Source of the DNA: Anaeromyxobacter dehalogenans 2CP-1
GTDB taxonomy: Bacteria > Myxococcota > Myxococcia > Myxococcales > Anaeromyxobacteraceae
DNA: 64,000 nt
Assembly (NCBI RefSeq): GCF_000022145.1
Contig: NC_011891.1
Coordinates: 2,492,001-2,556,000, forward strand
Reading direction: 5' to 3'
The notes beneath the pieces were generated by a model, which was not told the DNA's origin, ran no database searches, and saw only the letters and a list, made by a program, of their open reading frames with translations. Both the position numbers and the translations under genes were made by a program. Shown here in pieces: positions 2,219 to 26,854 of this stretch. How positions within the stretch are numbered: position 1 is the first letter of the stretch; the number at the start of each line of letters is the position of its first letter.

Positions 2219-4867
2219 ATGCCGGAGATCGCCCAGGCCCACACGCCGATGATGCGGCAGTACCTCGAGACCAAGGCGAGGTACCCCGACGCCATCCTGT
2301 TCTTCCGCCTCGGCGACTTCTACGAGATGTTCTTCGAGGACGCGCTCACCGCGTCCGAGGCGCTGCAGATCACGCTGACGGCGCGCTCCAAGGGCGACGA
2401 CAAGGTCCCGATGTGCGGCGTGCCCTACCACGCGGCGCGGGGCTACGTGGCGCGCCTGCTGGAGAAGGGCTTCAAGGTCGCCATCTGCGACCAGGTCGAG
2501 GAGCCGGGCAAGTCGCAGCTCGTGAAGCGCGAGGTCACCCGGGTGGTGACGCCGGGCATGGTCCTCGACGACCAGGTGCTCGATCCGCGCGAGGCGAGCT
2601 GGCTGGGCGCGGTGGCGCTGGAGGACGGGCGCGCCGGGCTGGCGCTGCTCGACGCCTCGACCGGGCAGCTCCAGTGCGGAGAGGTGGACGGCGACGAGCG
2701 GCTGGTGGACGAGCTGCGCCGGGCCGGCGTGCGCGAGCTGGTGTTCTCGAGCGCGGCGGACGGCGCGCGGACCGACGCGATCGCGCGCGCGGCGGGGGCA
2801 CCGGCGGCCCGCCGCGACGCGGCCGAGTTCGACCGCGCCGAGGACCGGCTGCGCAAGCACCTGGGCGTGCCGAGCCTGGACGGCTTCGGGGTCTCCGGGC
2901 TGCCGCTCGGGCTCGCCGCGGCCGCGGCCGCGCTCGCCTACCTCGCCGACACGCAGCGCGCGACGCCGCGCCACGTGGACCGGATCTCGCGGCTCTCCAC
3001 CGACGACGTCCTCCTGCTCGACGAGGCCACCCGCACGAACCTCGAGCTGGAGCGGACGCTGTCCGGCGGCCGCAAGAAGGGGACGCTGCTCGCGCTCCTG
3101 GATCGCACCGTGACCGCGCCCGGCGGGCGGCGCCTGGCGGAGTGGCTGCGCTACCCGCTCACCGACCTCGCGCGCATCGGGGCGCGGCTCGACGCGGTGG
3201 AGGAGCTCACCGGCGCCGCGGTGGCGCGCGAGGAGCTGGCGCTGGCGCTCCGGCCGGTCGCAGACCTGGAGCGGCTGCTCTCGCGGCTGGTGCTGGGGCA
3301 GGGGAACGCGCGGGACCTGCGGGCGCTGGCGGGCGCGCTCCTGGCGCTGCCGGCGCTCGCGGGCGTGCTCGAGGCGCGCGGCGCCGCGCGGCTGCGCGAG
3401 GCGGGCGCGCGGCTGCGCGGGCTGGAGGCGCTGGCGGCGCACCTCGACGCGGCCGTCGCCGAGGAGCCGCCGGCCACCCTGCGCGAGGGCGGGTTCATCC
3501 GCCGGGGCCACTCCGCCGAGCTGGACGAGATCGTCGCCATCGCCGAGGACGGCAAGGGGTGGATCGCCGCCATGGAGGCGAAGGAGCGGGAGCGCACCGG
3601 GATCGGCTCGCTCAAGGTCCGCTTCAACAAGGTCTTCGGCTACTACCTCGAGGTCACCAAGCCCAACCTGCACCTCGTCCCCAAGGACTGGGAGCGGCGG
3701 CAGACCACGGTCGGCGGCGAGCGCTTCGTCACCCCCGAGCTGAAGACGTTCGAGGAGAAGGTCCTCACCGCCGAGGAGCGGCGGGCGGCGCTGGAGGAGC
3801 GGCTGTTCGAGGCGCTGCGGCAGGCGGTCGCCGCCGAGGCGCCGCGGGTGCGCACCGCGGCGGACGCGGTCGCCACCGCGGACGCGCTCCTGTCGCTCTC
3901 GCGCGTCGCGGCGGAGCGCGGCTACGTGCGGCCCGAGGTGGACGCGTCCGAGGCGCTCGAGATCGTGGACGGGCGCCACCCGGTGGTGGAGGCGGTGCTG
4001 CCGGACGGGCCGGCCGCCTACGTGCCGAACGACGTCCTGGTGGCCTCGCGCGGCGCGCCGGAGTGCGGCGAGCACGGCGCGCTGCTGGTCATCACCGGGC
4101 CGAACATGGCCGGCAAGAGCACGGTGATGCGCCAGGCGGCGCTGGTGGTGCTGCTCGCGCAGATGGGCGCGTTCGTGCCGGCGCGGCGCGCGCGCATCGG
4201 GCTGGTGGACCGGATCTTCACGCGGGTGGGCGCCTCCGACGACCTGGCGCGGGGCCGCTCCACGTTCATGGTGGAGATGACCGAGACCGCGGCCATCCTC
4301 CACAACGCCACCCGCCGGTCGCTGGTGGTGCTCGACGAGATCGGCCGCGGCACCTCCACGTTCGACGGCGTGTCCATCGCCTGGGCGGTCGCGGAGCACC
4401 TCCACGACGTGACCGGCTGCCGCACGCTGTTCGCGACGCACTACCACGAGCTGCAGGACCTCGCGCGTGAGCGGCCGGCGGTGCGCAACCTCACGGTGGC
4501 GGTGCGCGAGGTGGGCGACCGGGTGGTGTTCCTGCGCAAGCTGGTGCAGGGCGGCGCGTCGCGCAGCTACGGCATCGAGGTCGCGAAGCTGGCGGGCCTG
4601 CCGGCCGAGGTGCTGGCGCGGGCCCGCGAGATCCTGAAGAACCTGGAGGCGATGGAGGTGGACGAGGGCGGCCACCCCGCGCTGGCCCGCGGCCGGCGGC
4701 GCCGCGCCGGCCCCTCCGCCGCGCAGCTCGGCCTGTTCGGCGGCGGGGCGCCGGCGGACCCGGCCGCGGAGGACGTCGCGAAGGCCATCCGCGCGATCGA
4801 CCTCGACGCGCTCCGCCCGCTCGACGCGCTCAACCTGCTGGCCGGCTGGAAGAAGTCGCTGGAGTAG
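2219..4867 (+). CDS. mutS: DNA mismatch repair protein MutS
   Basis: 882 residues, the usual MutS1 length. The N-terminal mismatch-recognition domain has the Phe-x-Glu motif (F34, E36 in GDFYEMF) that stacks on the mispaired base. The C-terminal ATPase has Walker A (GPNMAGKST, about residues 625-634), Walker B (VVLDEIGRGTST) and a conserved FATHYHEL. It senses mismatches after replication and recruits MutL. No mutL lies in this window. The ATG at 2219 is preceded by a -10-like TAGAAA only 11 nt upstream and no strong Shine-Dalgarno. It converges with the cytochrome gene at 4941-5219, separated by a hairpin. Confidence 0.98.
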   Translation: MPEIAQAHTPMMRQYLETKARYPDAILFFRLGDFYEMFFEDALTASEALQITLTARSKGDDKVPMCGVPYHAARGYVARLLEKGFKVAICDQVEEPGKSQLVKREVTRVVTPGMVLDDQVLDPREASWLGAVALEDGRAGLALLDASTGQLQCGEVDGDERLVDELRRAGVRELVFSSAADGARTDAIARAAGAPAARRDAAEFDRAEDRLRKHLGVPSLDGFGVSGLPLGLAAAAAALAYLADTQRATPRHVDRISRLSTDDVLLLDEATRTNLELERTLSGGRKKGTLLALLDRTVTAPGGRRLAEWLRYPLTDLARIGARLDAVEELTGAAVAREELALALRPVADLERLLSRLVLGQGNARDLRALAGALLALPALAGVLEARGAARLREAGARLRGLEALAAHLDAAVAEEPPATLREGGFIRRGHSAELDEIVAIAEDGKGWIAAMEAKERERTGIGSLKVRFNKVFGYYLEVTKPNLHLVPKDWERRQTTVGGERFVTPELKTFEEKVLTAEERRAALEERLFEALRQAVAAEAPRVRTAADAVATADALLSLSRVAAERGYVRPEVDASEALEIVDGRHPVVEAVLPDGPAAYVPNDVLVASRGAPECGEHGALLVITGPNMAGKSTVMRQAALVVLLAQMGAFVPARRARIGLVDRIFTRVGASDDLARGRSTFMVEMTETAAILHNATRRSLVVLDEIGRGTSTFDGVSIAWAVAEHLHDVTGCRTLFATHYHELQDLARERPAVRNLTVAVREVGDRVVFLRKLVQGGASRSYGIEVAKLAGLPAEVLARAREILKNLEAMEVDEGGHPALARGRRRRAGPSAAQLGLFGGGAPADPAAEDVAKAIRAIDLDALRPLDALNLLAGWKKSLE

Positions 4868-4877
4868 GAAAAAGGAA

Positions 4878-4897
4878 GGGGCCGGTCGCCCGGCCCC
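4878..4897 (-). terminator. Intrinsic terminator of the first triheme cytochrome gene
   Basis: Perfect 8-bp stem (GGGGCCGG / CCGGCCCC) with a 4-nt loop. Read on the reverse strand it is followed by TTCCTTTTTCC, a U-rich tail, so it terminates the cytochrome gene that stops at 4941. On the forward strand there is no T-tract, so it may only weakly stop mutS transcription. Confidence 0.75.
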
Positions 4898-4940
4898 TCG
4901 CGCTGCGGTCGTGACCGGGAAGACCCGGCCGACGGGTTCG

Positions 4941-5219
4941 CTACGCCTTCTTGTGGCACTCGGCGCACTTCGCCGGGCCCTTCGCTTCCTTCTTGTGGCA
5001 CTCGATGCAGCTCGCGTGCGCCTTCTCCTTGCCGAACCCCTCGATCTTGCCGCCGGCGGCGGTCGCGTGGCAGGTCTCGCACTTCACCGCCGCGTGGGTC
5101 TTGTGGTTGAAGGTCACGTCGCCGTTCTTTGCCTTGAGCACGGTCGGCGCGGCGGGCGCGGCGGCCATGGCGGAGCCGGTGAGCACGAAGGCGGCCACGA
5201 TCGAAGCGAGGAGCTTCAT
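4941..5219 (-). CDS. Periplasmic triheme cytochrome c (c7/PpcA-like)
   Basis: 92 residues. A signal peptide (MKLLASIVAAFVLTGSAMA) is followed by a mature domain of about 72 residues with three CxxCH heme sites: CETCH, CIECH and CAECH. Extra His residues (HKTH, KAH) can supply the distal ligands. Size and heme count match the cytochrome c7 family, such as PpcA of Geobacter, which shuttles electrons across the periplasm during metal respiration. That role is inferred by family. Only the Lys-rich linkers and heme segments are strongly conserved with the neighbour at 5442-5729. It has its own terminator (4878-4897), so it can be expressed independently. Confidence 0.93.
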   Translation of the reverse strand: MKLLASIVAAFVLTGSAMAAAPAAPTVLKAKNGDVTFNHKTHAAVKCETCHATAAGGKIEGFGKEKAHASCIECHKKEAKGPAKCAECHKKA

Positions 5220-5393
5220 TGGGATGTACCCCTGGTGAGAGCGGACGGGTCCATTCCCGTCGCGAATTGGACGGGCACTCTAGCCCGCGCATTCTCCGGG
5301 GGGCCTGCGGCAAGTGCGCGCATGCGCGCGCGAGCGCAGGCGTGGATTGAGCACATGCACCCGCACCCTGGGTCAAAGCGGAGCAAATGAAAA

Positions 5394-5414
5394 GGGGCCG
5401 CGCGCGGCGGCCCC
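5394..5414 (-). terminator. Intrinsic terminator of the second triheme cytochrome gene
   Basis: 8-bp perfect stem (GGGGCCGC / GCGGCCCC) with a 5-nt loop. On the reverse strand it is followed by TTTTCATTTGC. It lies 28 nt beyond the stop codon of the cytochrome at 5442-5729 and upstream of the first cytochrome, separating the two transcripts. Confidence 0.75.
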
Positions 5415-5441
5415 CTCGGTGCGGCGGCGAAGCGGTGCGGG

Positions 5442-5729
5442 CTACGCCTTCTTGTGGCACTCCGCGCACTTCGTCGGGCCCTTGGCCTCCTTCTTGTGGC
5501 ACTCGATGCAGAGGCCGTGGGCCTTGTCCTTGCCGAAGCCCTCGATCTTCCCGCCCGCCGCGGTGGCGTGGCAGGTCTCGCACTTGCCGAGCTTGTCGGC
5601 GTGCGCCTTGTGCGGGAACGTCACGTTGCCCGGCTTGGCCTGGAGGGTGAGGGTGGCGGGCGGCTCGGCGGCGACGGCGACGACGGAGATGGTCAGTGCG
5701 GCGAACAGCGCAGCGAGGTACTTGGTCAC
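5442..5729 (-). CDS. Periplasmic triheme cytochrome c (c7/PpcA-like), tandem paralogue
   Basis: 95 residues with a signal peptide (MTKYLAALFAALTISVVAVA) and three CxxCH motifs (CETCH, CIECH, CAECH) in the same spacing as the cytochrome at 4941-5219. From CETCH to the C-terminus the two proteins are nearly identical, while the first ~45 residues diverge (HKAHADKLGK versus HKTHAAVK). This suggests a duplication with divergence of the first heme environment. A good ribosome-binding site (AGGAG) precedes the ATG. A periplasmic electron carrier role is expected; the redox partner cannot be told from sequence, although a six-heme membrane cytochrome is encoded at 44891-46297. Confidence 0.93.
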   Translation of the reverse strand: MTKYLAALFAALTISVVAVAAEPPATLTLQAKPGNVTFPHKAHADKLGKCETCHATAAGGKIEGFGKDKAHGLCIECHKKEAKGPTKCAECHKKA

Positions 5730-5895
5730 GTGAGGCTCCTCGGAATCGGGGCGGACCAGCCCGCCCGGCTATCGGACGCGCGACATTACTCGATATTCAG
5801 GGGGGTCCGGAAGAATTGTCGCAGAGGGGCCCTGACCGGCATCCCCGGTTGACGTGCATCAATTCAGGGCCTTTCCTCCCGCCGGGAGGGGGCTG

Positions 5896-6561
5896 TCAGG
5901 CCATCTCCAGCACCGCCGAGACCAGCTTGTCGATCCCGGTCGCCACCGGGGCGATCCAGGGGCCGAGCATGTAGGCGGGCGTGCTGGCGATCTTCAGCCG
6001 CTCGTCCACCACCGCGTCCTCCACCTTGCAGTCCACGTGGCGCGCGCCCCAGGACTCGATCGCGGCGGCGGTGTCGCGGTCGTTCCCGATCGTGACCTTG
6101 ACCCCCTCGGGCCCGAGCAGGCGCGCCGCGATCACCGGGGCGATGCAGATGAAGCCCATCGGCCTGCCGGCGCCGCGCACCTCGCGCACGATCCGCTCCA
6201 CCTCCGGGAGGACGCGCATGGCCCGGCCCTCCACCGCGAAGCTGCAGAGGTTCTTGGCCGCGCCGAAGCCGCCCGGGAACACCAGCGCGTCGAGGTCCCG
6301 CCCCGACACCGCGGAGAGCGGCGTGATCTGCCCGCGCACGATGCGGGCCGCCTCCACCAGCACGCGGCGCCGCTCGCCGTCGGCCGGCGCCCCCTTCACG
6401 TGATCGACGACGTGCAGCTGCTCGACGTCCGGCGCGGTCGCGACGAGCTTCACGCCGCGGCGGTCGAGGGACAGCAGCGTGCACACCGCCTCGTGGATCT
6501 CGGCGCCGTCCAGGAACCCGCAGCCGGACAGGACGACGCCCACGCGCTTCTGGCTCGCCAT
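5896..6561 (-). CDS. elbB: ElbB-type DJ-1/PfpI family glyoxalase
   Basis: 221 residues, the usual ElbB length. It shows the family N-terminus (VLSGCGFLDGAEIHE) and the nucleophile elbow with C139 (GFICIAP), plus the FPGGFGAAKNL loop. The E. coli homologue ElbB has been described as a glyoxalase III-like protein and was historically linked to isoprenoid synthesis; the physiological role is unsettled. The ATG at 6561 has a GGAGG ribosome-binding site 7 nt upstream. Longer frames reaching upstream are the antisense of the amidase gene and were rejected. It is divergently oriented from the amidase at 6718. Confidence 0.93.
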   Translation of the reverse strand: MASQKRVGVVLSGCGFLDGAEIHEAVCTLLSLDRRGVKLVATAPDVEQLHVVDHVKGAPADGERRRVLVEAARIVRGQITPLSAVSGRDLDALVFPGGFGAAKNLCSFAVEGRAMRVLPEVERIVREVRGAGRPMGFICIAPVIAARLLGPEGVKVTIGNDRDTAAAIESWGARHVDCKVEDAVVDERLKIASTPAYMLGPWIAPVATGIDKLVSAVLEMA

Positions 6562-6717
6562 CGGAGGCCTCCGAGGAGTGTGGGACGGGCCAGGATACCG
6601 CCGCCGCGCGCACCCGGGCAGTGTCCCGGGCCGGTCGGGAATGGCCCCGCGCATGGGATGCGCGCCGGCGGCCGGAAATTGGACGGAGATATCGAGCGGG
6701 GGGACATTCGCCCTCCC

Positions 6718-8529
6718 ATGCGCCGCGCCGCCGTCCTGCTCACCGTGCTGATGCTCGCTGCCCCGGTGGAGGCAGCGCCGGCGGCGCGCTACCGCGGCAG
6801 GACGCCCGCCGCCGCGAAGCACGACGCGCCGCGGCGAACGGCGGCCCGCGCGCGCCCGGCCCCGGCGCCGAAGAAGCCCGCGGCCCGGGCGAAGGTGAGC
6901 CGGCTGGTGGACGCCAAGGCCGCGATGTCCGCGCTGATGCGCGACCGGAACCGGCGCCGCTACCGCCACAACTGGGAGAAGGCGATCCGCGGGCTCGAGC
7001 AGGCGGCGCGCGGGAAGGACGCGCCGGCCGCGCTGCTCGAGGCGTCCCGCGCGCGGTACGCGCTGTACCGCTGGTCCGCGGTGGAGGCGGATCGCGACGA
7101 GGCGCTTCGGCTCGCGGCGCGCGCGACGCGCCTCGGCTCGCGCGACGCGCCCGCGCTCGCCGCCGCGATCCGCCGCGAGGCCGGCGACGATCGCCCGGCG
7201 CGCGCCGCCGCGCCGCCCCGGGCCGCGCCGAAGCGGGCGCCGACGCCCGCGCCCGCGGCCCCTGCGGCGCCCGAGCCGGAGCCCGCCGACGCCGACGAGG
7301 AGCCCGCCCCGGAGCCCGCGCTCGACGCGGCCCTGGCCGACCTGCGCGGCGAGCCCGCCCGGCCCATGCCGCTCGGCGAGTCCGGCGGGGAGGGCACGGC
7401 CACCGTCTCCGAGGTCCGGGCCTGGTCGAGCGGCGACTACACCCGCGTCGCGATCTACTTGTCGCACTGGGTGGGCTGGCACAAGCTGGAGCTCGCCCCG
7501 GAGGGCGACCGCCCTCGCCGGCTCGCGCTCGACCTGCGCCCGGCGCACCTCGACGGCAAGGCGGTCGAGCGCGCCGTGGCCGGCGACCAGGTGGACCGGG
7601 TGCGCGCGGCGCAGAACGGCCCGGACACCGTGCGCGTGGTGCTGGACCTGCCCGGCGACGACAAGGTGCAGCTCTTCACGCTCGACGACCCGCCGCGCCT
7701 GATCGTGGACGTCGGGACGCACGCCGCCATCCACCAGGCGATCGCCGGGGCGACCCGCGCGCCGGAGCCGCCGCCGGCGCCCGGCCCGGCCGCGCCCGCG
7801 GGCAAGGCCGGCCCGTCCGCCGGCGAGGGCGAGCTCGGGCCCATCCGTCGCATCGTGGTGGACGCCGGGCACGGCGGCCACGATCCCGGCGCCATCGGCC
7901 CGACGCGCGTGCGCGAGAAGGACGTGACGCTCGCGATCGCGCGGCGGCTGGCGCGCAAGCTGGAGGCCGAGGGCTTCCAGGTGGTGCTGACGCGCCGCGA
8001 CGACCGGTTCCTGGCGCTCGAGGAGCGCACCGCGCTCGCGAACACCGCCCGCGGCGACCTGTTCGTCTCGGTGCACGCGAACGCCCACCCGCGCCGCGTC
8101 CGCGCCGGCGTGGAGACCTACTTCCTGAACGTGGCCGACGACCGCTACGCGGCCCGGCTCGCCGCCCGCGAGAACGGGCTCGACGCCGAGGACGCGCCGT
8201 CGGAGGTGGCGCGCATCCTGAGCGACCTCGACGCGAAGGCCAGCGCCGACAGCTCGCGCCGGCTCGCGCAGCTCGTCCAGCGCGAGGTGTGCGCGGGCGT
8301 GCGCTCGAGGGTGGGGGACGTGAAGGATCTCGGCGTGAAGAGCGCGCTGTTCTACGTGCTGCTGGGCGCGCGCATGCCGGCGGTGCTGGTCGAGACCGGG
8401 TTCATCTCCAACCGCGCCGAGGAGCAGCGCCTCGGCTCGGCGCGCTACCAGGACGAGGTCGCGTCCGGGATCACCCGCGCGGTCGCGCAGTTCGCCCGGG
8501 GCGACGCGCGGGTCGCGGCGGCGCGCTGA
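6718..8529 (+). CDS. Periplasmic N-acetylmuramoyl-L-alanine amidase (AMIN plus Amidase_3)
   Basis: 603 residues. A signal peptide (MRRAAVLLTVLMLAAPVEA) is followed by a basic Ala/Pro-rich and helical stretch to about residue 230, then an AMIN-like beta domain (about 235-340, starting GTATVSEVRAWSSGDYTRV), then a zinc amidase. The catalytic zinc ligands and acid are visible as H385 (DAGHGGHD), E398 (REKDV), H453 (SVHANA) and E559 (VETGFISN). The enzyme cleaves the peptide stem from peptidoglycan, typically at the division septum, and AMIN targets it there. The long Lys/Arg/Pro/Ala region before AMIN is larger than in AmiC and may be disordered. The start is chosen because the signal peptide begins there. 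Confidence 0.93.
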   Translation: MRRAAVLLTVLMLAAPVEAAPAARYRGRTPAAAKHDAPRRTAARARPAPAPKKPAARAKVSRLVDAKAAMSALMRDRNRRRYRHNWEKAIRGLEQAARGKDAPAALLEASRARYALYRWSAVEADRDEALRLAARATRLGSRDAPALAAAIRREAGDDRPARAAAPPRAAPKRAPTPAPAAPAAPEPEPADADEEPAPEPALDAALADLRGEPARPMPLGESGGEGTATVSEVRAWSSGDYTRVAIYLSHWVGWHKLELAPEGDRPRRLALDLRPAHLDGKAVERAVAGDQVDRVRAAQNGPDTVRVVLDLPGDDKVQLFTLDDPPRLIVDVGTHAAIHQAIAGATRAPEPPPAPGPAAPAGKAGPSAGEGELGPIRRIVVDAGHGGHDPGAIGPTRVREKDVTLAIARRLARKLEAEGFQVVLTRRDDRFLALEERTALANTARGDLFVSVHANAHPRRVRAGVETYFLNVADDRYAARLAARENGLDAEDAPSEVARILSDLDAKASADSSRRLAQLVQREVCAGVRSRVGDVKDLGVKSALFYVLLGARMPAVLVETGFISNRAEEQRLGSARYQDEVASGITRAVAQFARGDARVAAAR

Positions 8530-21740: not shown

Positions 21741-23762
21741 GTGTCCCGCGTTCCCGCAGCCGCCACCTTCGCAGCCCGTCCATGCCGTGCAGGCCTCGCG
21801 GCCCTCCTCGCCGCGTGCCTCGCCTGCGGCGGCGGCGACCTCGGGTCGCCGGACCCGGCGCGGCGCGCCGCGGCGGTGCGCGCGGCGGGCGCGCGCGGCG
21901 GCGCGGACGCGCTCGCCACGCTGCTGGTCGCGCAGCGCGACGGCAGCGCCGAGGTGCGCCGGGCGGCGGCCGAGGCGTTCGCGGCGCGCGGCGGCGCCGA
22001 GGGGGCCGAGGCGCTCGGGGCGCTCCTGGCGGATCCCGACGCGACGGTGGCGGCCGCGGCGGCGCGCGGGCTCGCCGGCATGCCGGACCAGCCGCGCGCG
22101 CGCGGCGCGCTGCGCGTCGCCTACGCGGACGCGTCGCCCGAGGGCCGCGCGGCCATCGCCGACGCGCTCGACGCGGTCGGCGTCTCGCTGCGCGAGGCGG
22201 TCGAGCAGGAGGCGCGCACGCTGTGGGAGCGCAACCTGGCGGCCCTGGGCGGGCGCGGGCCGGCCCGCGCGGGCGCGGCCGAGGAGCTCGGCGCGAGCGG
22301 CCGGGCCGAGGTGGTGGCGCGGCTCGTGCCGCTGCTCGATCCGGCGCGCAACGCGGATCGCGCGCTCGCGGCGGGCGCGGCGCGCGGGCTGGGCGAGGCC
22401 GGGGACTGGGCGGCGCGGCCGGCGCTCGAGGGGCTCCTGCGCTCGCCGGATCCGGAGCTGATCGAGGCCGGGGCCGGCGGGCTGGGCCGGCTCGGCGATC
22501 CCGGGGCGACCGCCGCGCTCGAGGCCGTCGCGCTCGCGTCCTCCGGCCGGATCGCGGCCGCGGCGGCGGACGCGCTCGCCGCGCTGCCGGAGGCGCTCGA
22601 GGTCGGGGCGGCGCTCTGCGAGGTGGCGGTGCGGAGCGCCGATCCCGCCGTGGCGGCGCGGGCCGCGCGCGAGGTCCGGCTGCGCGAGGCGGACTGCCCG
22701 GCGCGCCCGTTCCTGGCGCGGCTGGGCCGGCCCGGGGCCGAGGCCGCCCTGGCCGCGCTCGGCGAGCTGGGCCTCACCGGCGCCGCGGCGGAGGCGGCCG
22801 CCGCGCGCCTGCTCCCGCTGCTCGACCCTGCGCGCGGCGACCCCGGGCTGCGCGCCGCCGCCGCGCGCGCGCTCGCCAGGCTCGGCGCGCCGGGCTCGGC
22901 CGGCCCGCTCCGCGACCGCGCCGCGACGCTCTCCGCGCGCCGGGCGGCCGCGCTCGGGCGGCCGGCGCCGGAGGCGCTGCCCGCAGGGGCGGGGACCGCC
23001 GCGGCGCGGGCCGGGGCGCGCCCGCCCACCGGCGACGGCGACGCGCGCGAGCTGGGCGCGCTGCTCGCCGCCGCTGGCGGGCTCCGCGCGCCGGGCGCGG
23101 AGCCGCTCCTGCTCGAGGCGGTGCGCGATCCGCACGCGGCGGTGCGCACCGGCGCCATCGCCGGCCTGGCGGGGCTGGGCACCGACGCGGCGCTGCGGGC
23201 GGTGGCCGCCGCGCTCGACGACGGCGCGCCCGAGGTGCGCCTCTCGGCCGCCGCGGCGCTGGGCCGGGCCGGGCCGCGAGCGGTGCCGGCGCTGGCGCGC
23301 GCGGCGGGGCAGGCGGCGCCCGACGACGGCAGCTGGCGCTCCGCGCTCGCGGTGGCGCTGGGCGACGCCGGCGGCGCGAGCGCGGTGGCGCCGCTCACCG
23401 CGCTGCTCGAGGGGGCCTCCGCCCCGGCGGCGGCGTTCGCGCTCGGCAAGACCGGCGCGCCCGCCGCGGTGAAGCCGCTGGTGGACTGGCTGGCGCGCCC
23501 GGGCTCGCTCGCGGACGCCGAGGCCATCGAGGCGCTCGCGCAGCTCGCCGCCCGCGACGCCGGGCCGGCCATCGCCGCGCAGCTCACCGCCGATCGCGCC
23601 GAGGTGCGGGCGGTGGCGGCGCGCGCCATCGGCCGGCTGCGTCACGAGGCGGCCGCGCCGCGGCTGGAGGCGCTGCGGAGCGACTACCACGGTCGCGTCC
23701 GACGCGCGGCGGTGGAGGCGCTCTCGCGCCTGCCGGCGGGCGCGCCGCGGATGCGCCGCTGA
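21741..23762 (+). CDS. HEAT-repeat lipoprotein
   Basis: 673 residues, strongly Ala-rich. The GTG start at 21741 is followed by a probable lipoprotein signal peptide (LAALLAACLACGGG, with a lipobox Cys near residues 26-29). The remainder is a long chain of ~30-residue HEAT-like units with the pattern DP...VRxAAAxALAxLG (for example DPHAAVRTGAIAGLAGLG and DGAPEVRLSAAAALGRAG). HEAT arrays are protein-binding scaffolds. No catalytic motif is seen. It faces the convergent envelope-protein gene at 23770. Function unknown. Confidence 0.8.
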   Translation: MSRVPAAATFAARPCRAGLAALLAACLACGGGDLGSPDPARRAAAVRAAGARGGADALATLLVAQRDGSAEVRRAAAEAFAARGGAEGAEALGALLADPDATVAAAAARGLAGMPDQPRARGALRVAYADASPEGRAAIADALDAVGVSLREAVEQEARTLWERNLAALGGRGPARAGAAEELGASGRAEVVARLVPLLDPARNADRALAAGAARGLGEAGDWAARPALEGLLRSPDPELIEAGAGGLGRLGDPGATAALEAVALASSGRIAAAAADALAALPEALEVGAALCEVAVRSADPAVAARAAREVRLREADCPARPFLARLGRPGAEAALAALGELGLTGAAAEAAAARLLPLLDPARGDPGLRAAAARALARLGAPGSAGPLRDRAATLSARRAAALGRPAPEALPAGAGTAAARAGARPPTGDGDARELGALLAAAGGLRAPGAEPLLLEAVRDPHAAVRTGAIAGLAGLGTDAALRAVAAALDDGAPEVRLSAAAALGRAGPRAVPALARAAGQAAPDDGSWRSALAVALGDAGGASAVAPLTALLEGASAPAAAFALGKTGAPAAVKPLVDWLARPGSLADAEAIEALAQLAARDAGPAIAAQLTADRAEVRAVAARAIGRLRHEAAAPRLEALRSDYHGRVRRAAVEALSRLPAGAPRMRR

Positions 23763-23769
23763 CCGCGGC

Positions 23770-25530
23770 CTAGAACGCGGCGGGCGGCGGCACGGGCGTG
23801 GTGGGCAGGACCGGCGGCGACTGCTGGCCGAACCGCGAGCGGAGCACCGCGCCGAAGGTGATGAGCCAGGTCGCGATCCAGACCAGCGCCCCGACGAACG
23901 GGATGTGCGCGAGCACCACGAAGATCGCCGTCCCGAGCGCGAGCTGCAGGACCACGGTGCGGCGCCGCTCCGGCACCGGCAGCGCGCGCCCCACGTGGAA
24001 GGTGAGGGCGGTGACGCCGAGGACCCCGGCCGCGATCATCCCCAGGATCTGCACCGGGATGAGCAGGATGCCGACGACCGTGACGGCGAGCAGCACGAGC
24101 AGCACCGGCATGGCCACCGTGCCGAGCGTGCCGGCGAGCAGCGACTTGCCCGGGCTCGCGACCATGTAGCTCGCCACCGCCTCCAGCCGCCGGGGGAACA
24201 GCGCCAGCACCAGCAGGCCGAGCACGAACAGCACCGCGAAGGAGATGAGCGCCTCGAGCACGGCGACGATGGGCGAGGCCTCGCGGAAGAAGTTGGAGGC
24301 GGTGCGGCCGAACACGCCCGGGAGGCTGGGGAACGGGATGGACTTGGTGTCCCCGCCCACGGTGGCGCTCGGGTCCACGATGACGCGCCCGCCGACGCTC
24401 ACCACGTCCTGCTCCACCGCGGCGCCGGGGCCGATCTCGACGTCCCCGCCCACCGCCACGACGTTGCGCGTGACCGCGCCGCCGGCCAGCCGGACACCGC
24501 CGAACACCGAGGAGACGTCGCGCGCCGCGGCCCCGCGGTCGAGCTGCACCGAGCCGAACACCGACGAGACGTCGCGCGCCGCGGCGCCACCCTGCACCTG
24601 CACGCTCCCGCGCACCACGTTCACGTCGCGCACGACCTCGCCGGACCGGACCACCACGTCCTGCCCGGTGGACTGCCGATCGCGCCCGCCGCTCTCGTCC
24701 ACCTCGCGCCCGGCGCGGCGCAGCTCGCGCTCGGCCTGGCGCAGCGCCTCCTCGGCGGAGCGGCGCGCCTCGTCGGCGATGCCCTGGGGGATCCGCAGGC
24801 CGAAGCCGCGGCCGGCGCGGATCGTGATGAGCGAGCCGGCCCGCTCCGCGGAGAGCCCCGCCTGCACCAGCACCGCCTGCAGCGCCTCCTCGACCGGGAT
24901 GTCCACGAAGTGGCCGCTCACGGTCCCGGCCGCCTCGTCGGGGATGACCACGGAGAGCCCGGCGGACTTGCAGATGACCCGGATGGCCTCGGCCACGGGC
25001 GTGTGGTCGAAGTCGCCGGTGAAGCGCTTGCCGCTGGGCTTGTCGAACCCCGAGAGCGCCCCGGGCGCCGCGCCGGTCCGCTCGCCGGTCGGCGCGACCA
25101 CCACCATGTCGCCGGTGCGGGTGGCGACCAGCTCGGTCCCGGCCAGCGCCGCCTTGAGCGCGTCCTCCACCGGCACGTTCCGGAGCTTCAGCACCAGCAG
25201 CTTGTTCCCGGTGCGCCCGGTGTTGAGCACCACGTCCCAGCCGGCGGCGTTCGCGATCTCCTCGAGCGCGTCGTCGAGCGAGGTGGTGTCGTCGATCGTG
25301 ACCCGCTTCCCGGACGGCGCCGGCCACTCACCCTGCAGCACCGACGGCGGGGCCTGGCGCTGGGGCGGCGCGGGCGGGGCCGGCGGCGCGGGGAGGGCCG
25401 CCTCGGGCCGGGCGCGCGGCGCGGGCTTCCGGGGCGGCCGCGGCGCCGGGGCGGTCGCCTGCGCGTTCACGACCGGCGGCGGTTCGGGGCTCTCGAGGGT
25501 GAGCGCGGCGAGGAGGAGGGCGAAGAGCAT
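23770..25530 (-). CDS. Envelope protein: two STN-like domains, polymer-forming repeats and C-terminal membrane domain
   Basis: 586 residues. The order is a signal peptide (MLFALLLAALTLES), a Pro/Ala linker, and two tandem secretin/TonB short N-terminal (STN)-like modules (about 75-145 and 165-235; each with a DALEEIANAAG or EAIRVICKSAG helix and VPVEDAL/IPVEEAL). A helical Arg/Glu stretch follows, then a repetitive beta segment of bactofilin type (VVRGSVQVQGGAAARDVSSVFGSV and similar), and finally about four transmembrane helices. The start at 25530 is preceded by GGAG. It is the third gene of an operon with an ECF sigma factor and an anti-sigma factor, so it may be an output or sensor of that envelope response (inference). 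Confidence 0.8.
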   Translation of the reverse strand: MLFALLLAALTLESPEPPPVVNAQATAPAPRPPRKPAPRARPEAALPAPPAPPAPPQRQAPPSVLQGEWPAPSGKRVTIDDTTSLDDALEEIANAAGWDVVLNTGRTGNKLLVLKLRNVPVEDALKAALAGTELVATRTGDMVVVAPTGERTGAAPGALSGFDKPSGKRFTGDFDHTPVAEAIRVICKSAGLSVVIPDEAAGTVSGHFVDIPVEEALQAVLVQAGLSAERAGSLITIRAGRGFGLRIPQGIADEARRSAEEALRQAERELRRAGREVDESGGRDRQSTGQDVVVRSGEVVRDVNVVRGSVQVQGGAAARDVSSVFGSVQLDRGAAARDVSSVFGGVRLAGGAVTRNVVAVGGDVEIGPGAAVEQDVVSVGGRVIVDPSATVGGDTKSIPFPSLPGVFGRTASNFFREASPIVAVLEALISFAVLFVLGLLVLALFPRRLEAVASYMVASPGKSLLAGTLGTVAMPVLLVLLAVTVVGILLIPVQILGMIAAGVLGVTALTFHVGRALPVPERRRTVVLQLALGTAIFVVLAHIPFVGALVWIATWLITFGAVLRSRFGQQSPPVLPTTPVPPPAAF

Positions 25531-25541
25531 TCTGGCTCCGG

Positions 25542-26075
25542 TCAGGCGAGCTCTGCGCGCGCCGAGGGGATGAGGCGCGAGAGCGCGAACAGCAGCGGGA
25601 CGGCGAGGACGGCGCACGCGAGCGCGAGCTGGAAGCGGAGCGCCGACAGCAGCGTGGCGGCCAGGCCGGCGCCGAGCCGCAGCGCCTCGCCGGCCGAGCC
25701 GAGGCCGCCGGCGAGCCGGCTGGCGGCGGGCGCCCAGGTGCCGGCCCCGGCGGCCACCACGGTGACGCCGATCGCGACGAGCACGGCGGCGAGGATGGCG
25801 ACGGCGAAGCGCCGCTCGCGCCGGACCGCGTGCTCGCGGGCGTCGATGCGGGAGAGCACGCCGGCGGTGAAGTCGCGCGGCAGCTCCGGGAGCTCGAGGG
25901 CGCCGAGCGCCTCGCCCAGCGCGTCGCCGAGCACGCGGTACGACTCGGTGAGCGCCTGGCACTCCGGGCAGCCGCCGGCGTGCGCCAGGACCTCGTCCGC
26001 CTCGGCCTCGAGCAGCATCCCGTCCATCAGGCGCTGCGCCTGCGCGTCGGTGAGGTGTCCGGTGAAGGTCGTCAT
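25542..26075 (-). CDS. Anti-sigma factor with zinc-finger (zf-HC2) domain
   Basis: 177 residues. The N-terminal HAGGCPEC (His-x3-Cys-x2-Cys) is the ZAS-type zinc motif of anti-sigma factors. A transmembrane helix (FAVAILAAVLVAIGVTVVAAGAGTW, about residues 89-112) and a second hydrophobic region near the C-terminus (FQLALACAVLAVPLLFAL) follow. The ATG overlaps the sigma-factor stop by 4 nt (ATGA), the standard sigma/anti-sigma arrangement. It should hold the ECF factor at the membrane until an envelope signal triggers release. Confidence 0.88.
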   Translation of the reverse strand: MTTFTGHLTDAQAQRLMDGMLLEAEADEVLAHAGGCPECQALTESYRVLGDALGEALGALELPELPRDFTAGVLSRIDAREHAVRRERRFAVAILAAVLVAIGVTVVAAGAGTWAPAASRLAGGLGSAGEALRLGAGLAATLLSALRFQLALACAVLAVPLLFALSRLIPSARAELA

Positions 26076-26728
26076 GGCGTGATCTCCGGGGCGCTCGCGT
26101 CGAGGGTCGCCTTGAGCCGCGCGCGGGCGCGGTGCAGCCAGGTCATCACGGTGCCGATGGGGACGTCCATGGCGGCGGCGATCTCCTTGTAGGAGAGGTG
26201 CTCCACGTGAAAGAGGTGCACGACCTCGCGGTAGTTCGCCGGCAGGGCCGCGACCGCGGCCTCGATCGTGCGCGCCAGCTCGCGGCGCTCCAGCGCGTCG
26301 TCGCCGCGGGGCGCGTCCGGGTCGGCGAGGTCGCGCGGCGCGCCGTCCTCCGGGTCCGCGTCCAGCTCGACCCGCTGCGCCTGCGGCAGGCGCCGGCGGA
26401 GCACGTCGAGGCAGTGGTTGCGGGCGATGCGCAGCAGCCAGGGCGCGAACGGCTGCGAGGCATCGAACGCGGCCAGGCTCGCGTAGGCGCGCGCGAACGC
26501 CTCCTGGGCGGCGTCCTGCGCCTCGTCCTGGTCCCGCAGCAGCCGGACGCAGAGGGCGAACACCGTGCGCTTGTGCAGGTCCACCAGCCGTGAGAAGGCC
26601 TGCCGGTCGCCTCGCGCGGCCGCCCGCGTCCACGCGGCCTCGCCGGACAGTGAGGGACCCAACGAGCGCTCCTCTGCGGGACAGGTGAGCGCGAAAGCTA
26701 GATCGGGGAGTGCGGCCACCGCAACCAT
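26072..26728 (-). CDS. ECF-type RNA polymerase sigma factor
   Basis: 218 residues. Sigma region 2 (FALCVRLLRDQDEAQDAAQEAFARAYASLAAFD, then WLLRIARNHCLDVLRRR) and region 4 (LPANYREVVHLFHVEHLSYKEIAAAMDVPIGTVMTWLHRARARLK) are complete and there is no region 1.1 or 3, as in extracytoplasmic-function factors. The ATG at 26728 leaves a ~30-residue extension before the conserved part; internal starts are possible. Its target promoters are unknown, but the downstream co-transcribed anti-sigma and envelope protein genes are likely ones. Confidence 0.92.
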   Translation of the reverse strand: MVAVAALPDLAFALTCPAEERSLGPSLSGEAAWTRAAARGDRQAFSRLVDLHKRTVFALCVRLLRDQDEAQDAAQEAFARAYASLAAFDASQPFAPWLLRIARNHCLDVLRRRLPQAQRVELDADPEDGAPRDLADPDAPRGDDALERRELARTIEAAVAALPANYREVVHLFHVEHLSYKEIAAAMDVPIGTVMTWLHRARARLKATLDASAPEITP

Positions 26729-26854
26729 GCAGAACCCTACGGAGAACGGCGGGTCCTATTTCGGCGGAGCGGCCGATCTCACGCTCCGTCCCGCCCTGCC
26801 TGGGGTGCTTCCCGGGAGGCGTCAAAAGCCGCTGTCATCCCAACGAGTTGAAGG

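Follow-up and report, generated by a model that had tools for sequence, protein, structure and literature searches.

An ECF σ/anti-σ operon of Anaeromyxobacter dehalogenans with an STN-solenoid membrane protein and a predicted Psp/Lia-like regulon

The stretch of the Anaeromyxobacter dehalogenans 2CP-1 genome analysed here (NC_011891.1, positions 2,492,001 to 2,556,000; 64,000 nucleotides (nt), hereafter the window) carries on its minus strand a compact set of three genes for an extracytoplasmic function (ECF) σ factor, an anti-σ factor and a protein in which STN modules, a β-solenoid and membrane helices are joined. To judge from sequence comparison, this module is a real, conserved system of the ECF/anti-σ kind with a predicted regulon resembling that of phage shock protein (Psp) systems, and we consider it probable that it works as an autoregulated envelope-stress module with a Psp/Lia-like output. 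Its domain content, operon conservation, promoter conservation and the genome-wide enrichment of its promoter motif were established computationally. The genes and their promoter are located in the window as follows.

26738–26762, minus strand: ECF-type promoter GAAATA-N15-CGTA, with CGTA 9 nt before the σ start codon
26072–26728, minus strand: ECF σ factor gene, 218 amino acids; Pfam Sigma70_r2 and Sigma70_r4_2 over cut-off; kept upstream of the third gene
25542–26075, minus strand: anti-σ factor gene, 177 amino acids; Pfam zf-HC2 over cut-off, and hydropathy of the window protein and its homologues
23770–25530, minus strand: third gene, 586 amino acids, STN-STN-helix-solenoid-membrane helices; Pfam, predicted model and core profile

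The σ and anti-σ genes overlap by 4 nt (ATGA), and 11 nt separate the anti-σ gene from the third gene. The σ factor has σ70 regions 2 and 4 only (Sigma70_r2, 61.6 bits; Sigma70_r4_2, 61 bits), the composition that defines an ECF factor. The anti-σ factor combines a zf-HC2 zinc finger, H-x3-C-x2-C (23.1 bits against a Pfam cut-off of 22.2), with a membrane anchor of two hydrophobic regions separated by a short loop. No sensor domain was recognised in it by Pfam, hydropathy showing the short loop only, and no FecR- or STN-type domain was matched in Pfam at expectation values (E) up to 1.

In the same E range, STN is the sole Pfam family matched in the third protein (64.2 bits against a cut-off of 28.4, in two stretches), with no secretin pore domain and no receptor barrel or plug. 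Together with hydropathy and an AlphaFold2 model, this divides the protein into the following parts.

25471–25530, minus strand: N-terminal hydrophobic, signal-like segment, by prediction only; short helix at residues 2–12 in the model
25090–25305, minus strand: STN domain 1, residues 76–147; Pfam STN stretch 101–147, and fold matches including DotD 3ady
24811–25035, minus strand: STN domain 2, residues 166–240; second Pfam STN stretch and fold comparison
24691–24786, minus strand: helical linker, residues 249–280; predicted model, partly of low confidence
24331–24684, minus strand: predicted bactofilin-fold β-solenoid, residues 283–400; repeats, predicted model and fold comparison
23839–24273, minus strand: membrane region, residues 420–564, probably five helices with basic loops; hydropathy and model

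The N-terminal segment is atypical in that it has no basic residue, and a proline-rich linker connects it to the first STN domain; by eye, the homologue at locus L063 has a clear Sec-type signal (L and G numbers denote the loci and genomes of our collection). The model, built from a 21-sequence alignment, has a mean predicted local distance difference test score (pLDDT) of 77.5. In blocks of ten residues the pLDDT is 76–94 for the STN domains and 76–93, mostly about 90, for the solenoid; the placement of the domains relative to each other is uncertain because the predicted template modelling score is 0.36. VIA-align comparison of the model pairs the first STN domain, over residues 61–150, with DotD 3ady (Z 8.7) and the second with EscC (Z 11.0), PilQ N0 (Z 10.3), the anti-σ structure 4m0n (Z 9.7) and FpvA (Z 9.2). 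The STN part also aligns with the PilQ profile at 52 bits, the whole-protein cut-off of which is 284, and secretin models align to the protein by their N-terminal part, over 99–118 residues. Membership of the secretin family was rejected, as Pfam gives STN alone and the secretin models reach the N-terminal part only.

The β segment is made of an 18–19-residue repeat, and the model supports its reading as a bactofilin-fold solenoid: the nearest folds in VIA-align are the two solved bactofilins, 6rib (Z 14.5 over 97 residues at 1.5 Å) and 2n3d (Z 12.3), followed by the next solenoid at Z 10.7. The match rests on VIA-align, since neither of two models of the protein gave a PDB match in Foldseek alone at an E of 0.001 or lower. 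The best Foldseek E for the second model was 1.2e-3 (PilQ N0), with no bactofilin among the 50 rows listed, and 2n3d appeared at E 0.2 in the search with the first model. The Pfam Bactofilin profile (PF04519) does not match the window protein and reaches 23.5 bits (E 6.7e-5), under its cut-off of 27.9, in the homologue L063. Alignment by hhalign of the solenoid with three of the four bactofilins encoded in this genome gave a probability of 4.9% in one direction and 30.7% in the other (E for the single pair 0.0082 and 0.00053; STN control 0.1%). Sequence kinship with bactofilins is thus weak. Assignment to the bactofilin family was thus rejected, as was assignment to the toastrack proteins: no DUF2154, DUF4097 or DUF2807 profile matched, and the toastrack structure 4opw scored Z 7.3 against 14.6 for the bactofilin 6rib.

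The membrane region probably comprises five helices, one plus two hairpins. Basic loops at residues 445–463 and 511–525, together with basic residues 564 and 566, would be compatible with a topology in which the solenoid lies outside and the C-terminus inside. Of the arginines in this region, R566 is found in all 21 aligned sequences, and R448 and R515 in nearly all. A first-pass annotation of this stretch, made from the letters alone, had described the protein as a fusion of two STN modules, a bactofilin-like segment and four membrane helices, and had suggested a membrane-anchored polymer or a sensor of secretin state. The fusion is supported, whereas five is the better helix count in the model. 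The bactofilin likeness stands at the level of the VIA-align fold and fails at that of the Pfam family profile. As to the membrane-anchored polymer, the model bears out the fold and the anchor, both as predictions.

Nucleotide searches covered 60 genomes of the order (55 matched, many by short stretches) and 39 genomes of a second family (32 matched). From these matches we picked 50 regions, 20 places from the order search and 30 places in 29 second-family genomes; G034 was already covered, weak matches in G071 and G085 were left out, and G072 was taken twice. The solenoid-membrane core was present in all 50, as judged by profiles built in this analysis. Five loci are cut by a contig end at their 5′ side, and in 43 of the other 45 the σ and anti-σ genes lie upstream on the same strand (among the 43, the σ gene of L057 is contig-cut and the third gene of L123 is cut at its 3′ end), a figure that describes loci having a core and not all genomes. 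The recurrence indicates that the gene arrangement is not a product of chance. The first-pass annotation was right about the coordinates, the 4-nt overlap, the 11-nt gap and the identities of the σ and anti-σ genes, both of which Pfam supports; these 43 loci likewise uphold its claim of an operon, and the common conserved promoter described below supports co-regulation of the genes.

The close spacing of the genes is also retained. In the first set of loci, 16 of the 17 have a clean anti-σ frame, and in 14 of these 16 the σ/anti-σ overlap is 4 nt; measured from the anti-σ stop, the third start (picked by eye) lies at −4 to +18 nt in all 16. At L058 (6229–6764, minus strand), the anti-σ matches are split over two reading frames, which suggests a frameshift or an assembly error. 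In the anti-σ homologues the zinc finger is kept, as are two hydrophobic stretches at about residues 85–111 and 130–168, joined by a short loop; the L061 protein has a longer hydrophobic run than the others.

The STN domains are more variable, their number ranging from 0 to 3 according to a profile built here. The window and most of its family have two, L052, L058 and L060 have one, and each of the 31 second-family loci has a single weak one (17.8–33.5 bits with a profile built from the first family). With Pfam, STN is matched at E 0.01 in 18 of the 21 aligned proteins and scores 15.4 bits, under its cut-off, in L063. The L059 protein (4699–7026, minus strand) has three STN domains by our profile (two by Pfam) and a Pfam PEGA domain. 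Placed on a tree of the core, these numbers suggest that STN copies change inside clades. A plasmid protein search returned three weak matches, which covered 13% of the query.

The promoter emerged from an alignment of the upstream regions of the σ genes. The window and 13 loci have GAAATA-N15-CGTA with CGTA 8–9 nt before the ATG, and beyond these 14 sites no exact match occurs in the 510 kilobases scanned (window plus loci). Within the window the site is the sole match (0 mismatches, up to 1 allowed), against a mean of 0.05 in shuffled sequences, 4 of 100 of which contained a match. The more general form G[AC]AAT-N16-CGTA occurs in 37 of 43 σ upstream regions (the window and 42 loci having the σ pair; L057 is too short) and, with a spacing of N17, in four more (L061, L106, L109 and L110). 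Spacings of N10–15 or N18–22 occur in none of the 43, and mononucleotide shuffles gave a mean of 0.005 loci. Such a site at the σ gene points to autoregulation by the σ factor, which very probably is the one that reads the motif. With CGTA only 9 nt before the start codon (window 26728–26762, minus strand), the σ transcript is expected to have almost no leader.

The same motif marks a small set of genes elsewhere in the genome. Nine genomes of the genus contain 41 exact sites, compared to one for a reversed-pattern control. Seven of these genomes hold 4–7 sites each, always with one at the σ gene; there was no exact site in G041 (100% complete, operon not detected by nucleotide search) or in G089 (66% complete). 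The other 34 sites precede genes for secreted solenoids (6), DUF2807 proteins (5), membrane peptides of 53–55 amino acids (6), membrane proteins of about 70 amino acids (4), CBM9-type domain proteins (4), PspC (3), Yip1 (2), a CAAX-type protease (1) and a membrane protein of no assigned family (1), and two (L163 and L176) have no convincing gene behind them. Pfam searches covered a single representative of each class other than the membrane protein of no assigned family, and two secreted solenoids; the remaining targets were classed by similarity, and secretion signals were assigned by eye. One of the two solenoids had no Pfam match and the other scored 16.1 bits for Bactofilin (cut-off 27.9). 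A hydropathy rule classed 30 of 34 downstream proteins as envelope-like, compared to 17 of 47 window genes; 2 of the 34 are σ factors.

Five genomes of the second family use their own variant of the motif, GMAATG-N15-CGTAG, with 33 sites versus 3 controls. The 30 sites that were read precede the σ gene (4, in four of the five genomes), secreted solenoids (2), toastrack-like proteins (4), PspC (2), bPH_2 (1), DUF5683/TM2-like proteins (4), Transgly_assoc (1), 36-amino-acid membrane peptides (2) and eight genes of other kinds such as ABC ATPases, with two lacking a convincing gene. Pfam confirmed DUF4097 on L193 and found no match on L213 (toastrack-like) or L200 (secreted solenoid). PspC behind the motif was confirmed at 71.4 bits on L161 in the genus and 55.2 bits on L215 in the second family, other PspC calls being made by similarity; control of PspC by this σ factor is thus a prediction from sequence. 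Three target classes are found in both families, namely secreted solenoids, toastrack proteins (DUF2807 in one, DUF4097 in the other) and PspC, and nothing else speaks as strongly for a single regulon as their recurrence behind different motif variants.

Two further features of the target genes were observed. A common leader, CTCTGGGGAGAGAGGACC, which by eye resembles a hairpin, lies behind the promoter at six sites. Five of them (L155, L157, L164, L173 and L188) are DUF2807 genes; the sixth, L176, lacks an intact gene, and tblastn found no DUF2807 there. Regions with this leader had no Rfam match at gathering thresholds. Tiny membrane proteins lie directly behind the promoter at L158, L165, L169, L175, L181 and L187 (53–55 amino acids) and at L192 and L211 (36 amino acids).

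A copy of the third gene with no σ/anti-σ pair nearby was also observed.

L107 (genome G072), 4839, minus strand: orphan third-gene copy behind a regulon promoter whose CGTA lies 39 nt ahead of the ATG

In the window, a repeat-rich open frame on the plus strand (21741–23762), HEAT-like by eye, runs convergently to the third gene and ends 7 nt from its stop codon.

For the operation of this module we propose the following scheme. At rest, the zinc-finger anti-σ factor would hold the σ factor at the inner membrane. The third protein, best read as a periplasm-facing membrane scaffold, would span the same membrane and, given the predicted topology, would hold its STN repeats and bactofilin-fold rod in the periplasm. 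Because the anti-σ factor has no recognised sensor domain, the signal would need a relay, and the third protein is the obvious candidate, as its gene has a fixed place in the operon and the protein itself carries swappable STN/PEGA modules on what is predicted to be the periplasmic side; input would thus most likely reach the anti-σ factor through it. It may also be an output, since an orphan copy and STN-less versions exist, and whether it is an input partner rather than only an output we regard as an even call. The signal, which we infer to be envelope stress and more specifically stress at the inner membrane, would release the σ factor, which would then fire its own promoter GAAATA-N15-CGTA and raise a small regulon made up of its own operon together with the genes for bactofilin-like secreted solenoids, toastrack proteins (DUF2807/DUF4097), PspC and short membrane proteins.

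Several observations weigh against this scheme. The upstream regions of L118 and L120 (two of 43) have no motif at N16 or N17, and G092 of the second family has no exact site at its σ gene among its four sites. The window's own genome has no exact-motif PspC site, such sites being present in three of the seven genomes of the genus that have sites at all. The envelope rule is passed by only 12 of the 23 downstream proteins of the second family, four of the 23 being σ factors. The secreted solenoids are bactofilin-like by their repeats, with no Pfam match for two and 16.1 bits, below the cut-off, for a third. The L061 operon keeps its σ and anti-σ genes yet has no STN domain by our profile, and L062, likewise a copy without STN, shows no ECF genes within the 11 kilobases read. 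Finally, the orphan L107 carries the promoter without σ or anti-σ genes nearby, as expected of a plain output.

This last point belongs to an alternative that we take as a serious, if somewhat less than even, prospect, namely that the third protein serves solely as an output. It would then be a periplasmic scaffold that is anchored in the membrane and induced by stress, one solenoid among several in the regulon, with the anti-σ factor controlled in another way, for example by proteolysis or the lipid bilayer. Such a role fits the conservation of the solenoid-membrane core, from which STN may be missing, as well as the secreted solenoids in the predicted regulon. However, a position right after the anti-σ gene in 43 of 45 loci exceeds what would be expected for one target of several, and the anti-σ factor has no recognised sensor of its own. 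Another reading is signalling of the FecI/FecR/FecA type, in which the STN domains would dock on a periplasmic domain of the anti-σ factor. The fecIRA genes are in the same order, σ, anti-σ and STN protein. The STN fold is common to the signalling domains of FecA, FpvA, PupB and FoxA and the PupR anti-σ domain, and contact of such a domain with an anti-σ factor is documented for FoxA/FoxR (PMC11637429). Here, however, the anti-σ factor has only its short loop and no FecR-type periplasmic domain was matched in it; the third protein has an inner-membrane anchor in place of an outer-membrane receptor barrel, for which no match was found; and the predicted regulon differs, no iron-uptake gene having been recognised among the targets. 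We consider this mechanism very improbable and have largely rejected it, the periplasmic receptor domain not having been found in the anti-σ factor.

A further possibility, in line with the secretin sensor suggested by the first-pass annotation, is a special case of our preferred scheme, in which the third protein relays the signal, and its probability overlaps with that of the scheme. The STN repeats would bind or mimic the N0 rings of mislocalised secretins and so trigger a Psp-like response through the ECF factor. The alignment of the STN part with the PilQ profile, its likeness to the EscC and PilQ N0 folds and the presence of PspC behind the motif in both families speak for such surveillance, and Psp proteins are described as forming complexes with mislocalised secretin multimers (PMC5596341). 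An STN number that ranges from 0 to 3, with an STN-less operon at L061, speaks against it, and we regard it as unlikely. In its boldest form, which we likewise regard as unlikely, the system would be dedicated to the surveillance of secretin assembly and take the place of the PspF/PspBC circuit: a bactofilin-fold scaffold, anchored in the inner membrane and facing the periplasm, would sense stray secretin N0 rings through its STN (N0) repeats and free the ECF σ factor, which would build a periplasmic scaffold from secreted and anchored bactofilin-fold proteins along with PspC and toastrack proteins.

Among known systems, the operon shares σ regions 2 and 4, a zinc-finger membrane anti-σ factor, overlapping genes and a conserved promoter with the ECF σ/zf-HC2 operons of the RpoE/SigW kind, and differs from them in an anti-σ factor without a recognised sensor and in the third STN-solenoid-membrane gene fixed in the operon. 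The solenoid shares its fold with bactofilins, whereas the window protein is unmatched by the family profile, predicted to be periplasmic and membrane-anchored, and fused to STN; with the secretins PilQ and GspD it shares the sequence and fold of N0 but has no matched pore domain. Psp/Lia systems as described in PMC11237479, where DUF2807 and DUF4097 are joined as toastrack, have PspC and toastrack proteins as partners in the response, both of which are among the targets predicted here, whereas control in our case would lie with an ECF/zf-HC2 pair and an STN-solenoid membrane protein. The same source suggests that toastrack operons are coupled to a linked σ factor; ECF and STN are absent from its main text, and no mention of bactofilin was counted for it. 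Among the papers listed in a targeted literature search, which covered few subscription journals, none gave an account of this combination, and a search for rpoE1/orf5 of Myxococcus xanthus was without result.

Taken together, the analysis predicts for two bacterial families an envelope-stress regulon that is under ECF control and has a sharply defined promoter. If true, this would mean a periplasmic bactofilin fold and a link between STN modules of the secretin type and a Psp-like response, and would thereby bear on how bacteria sense damage to the inner membrane and stray secretins.

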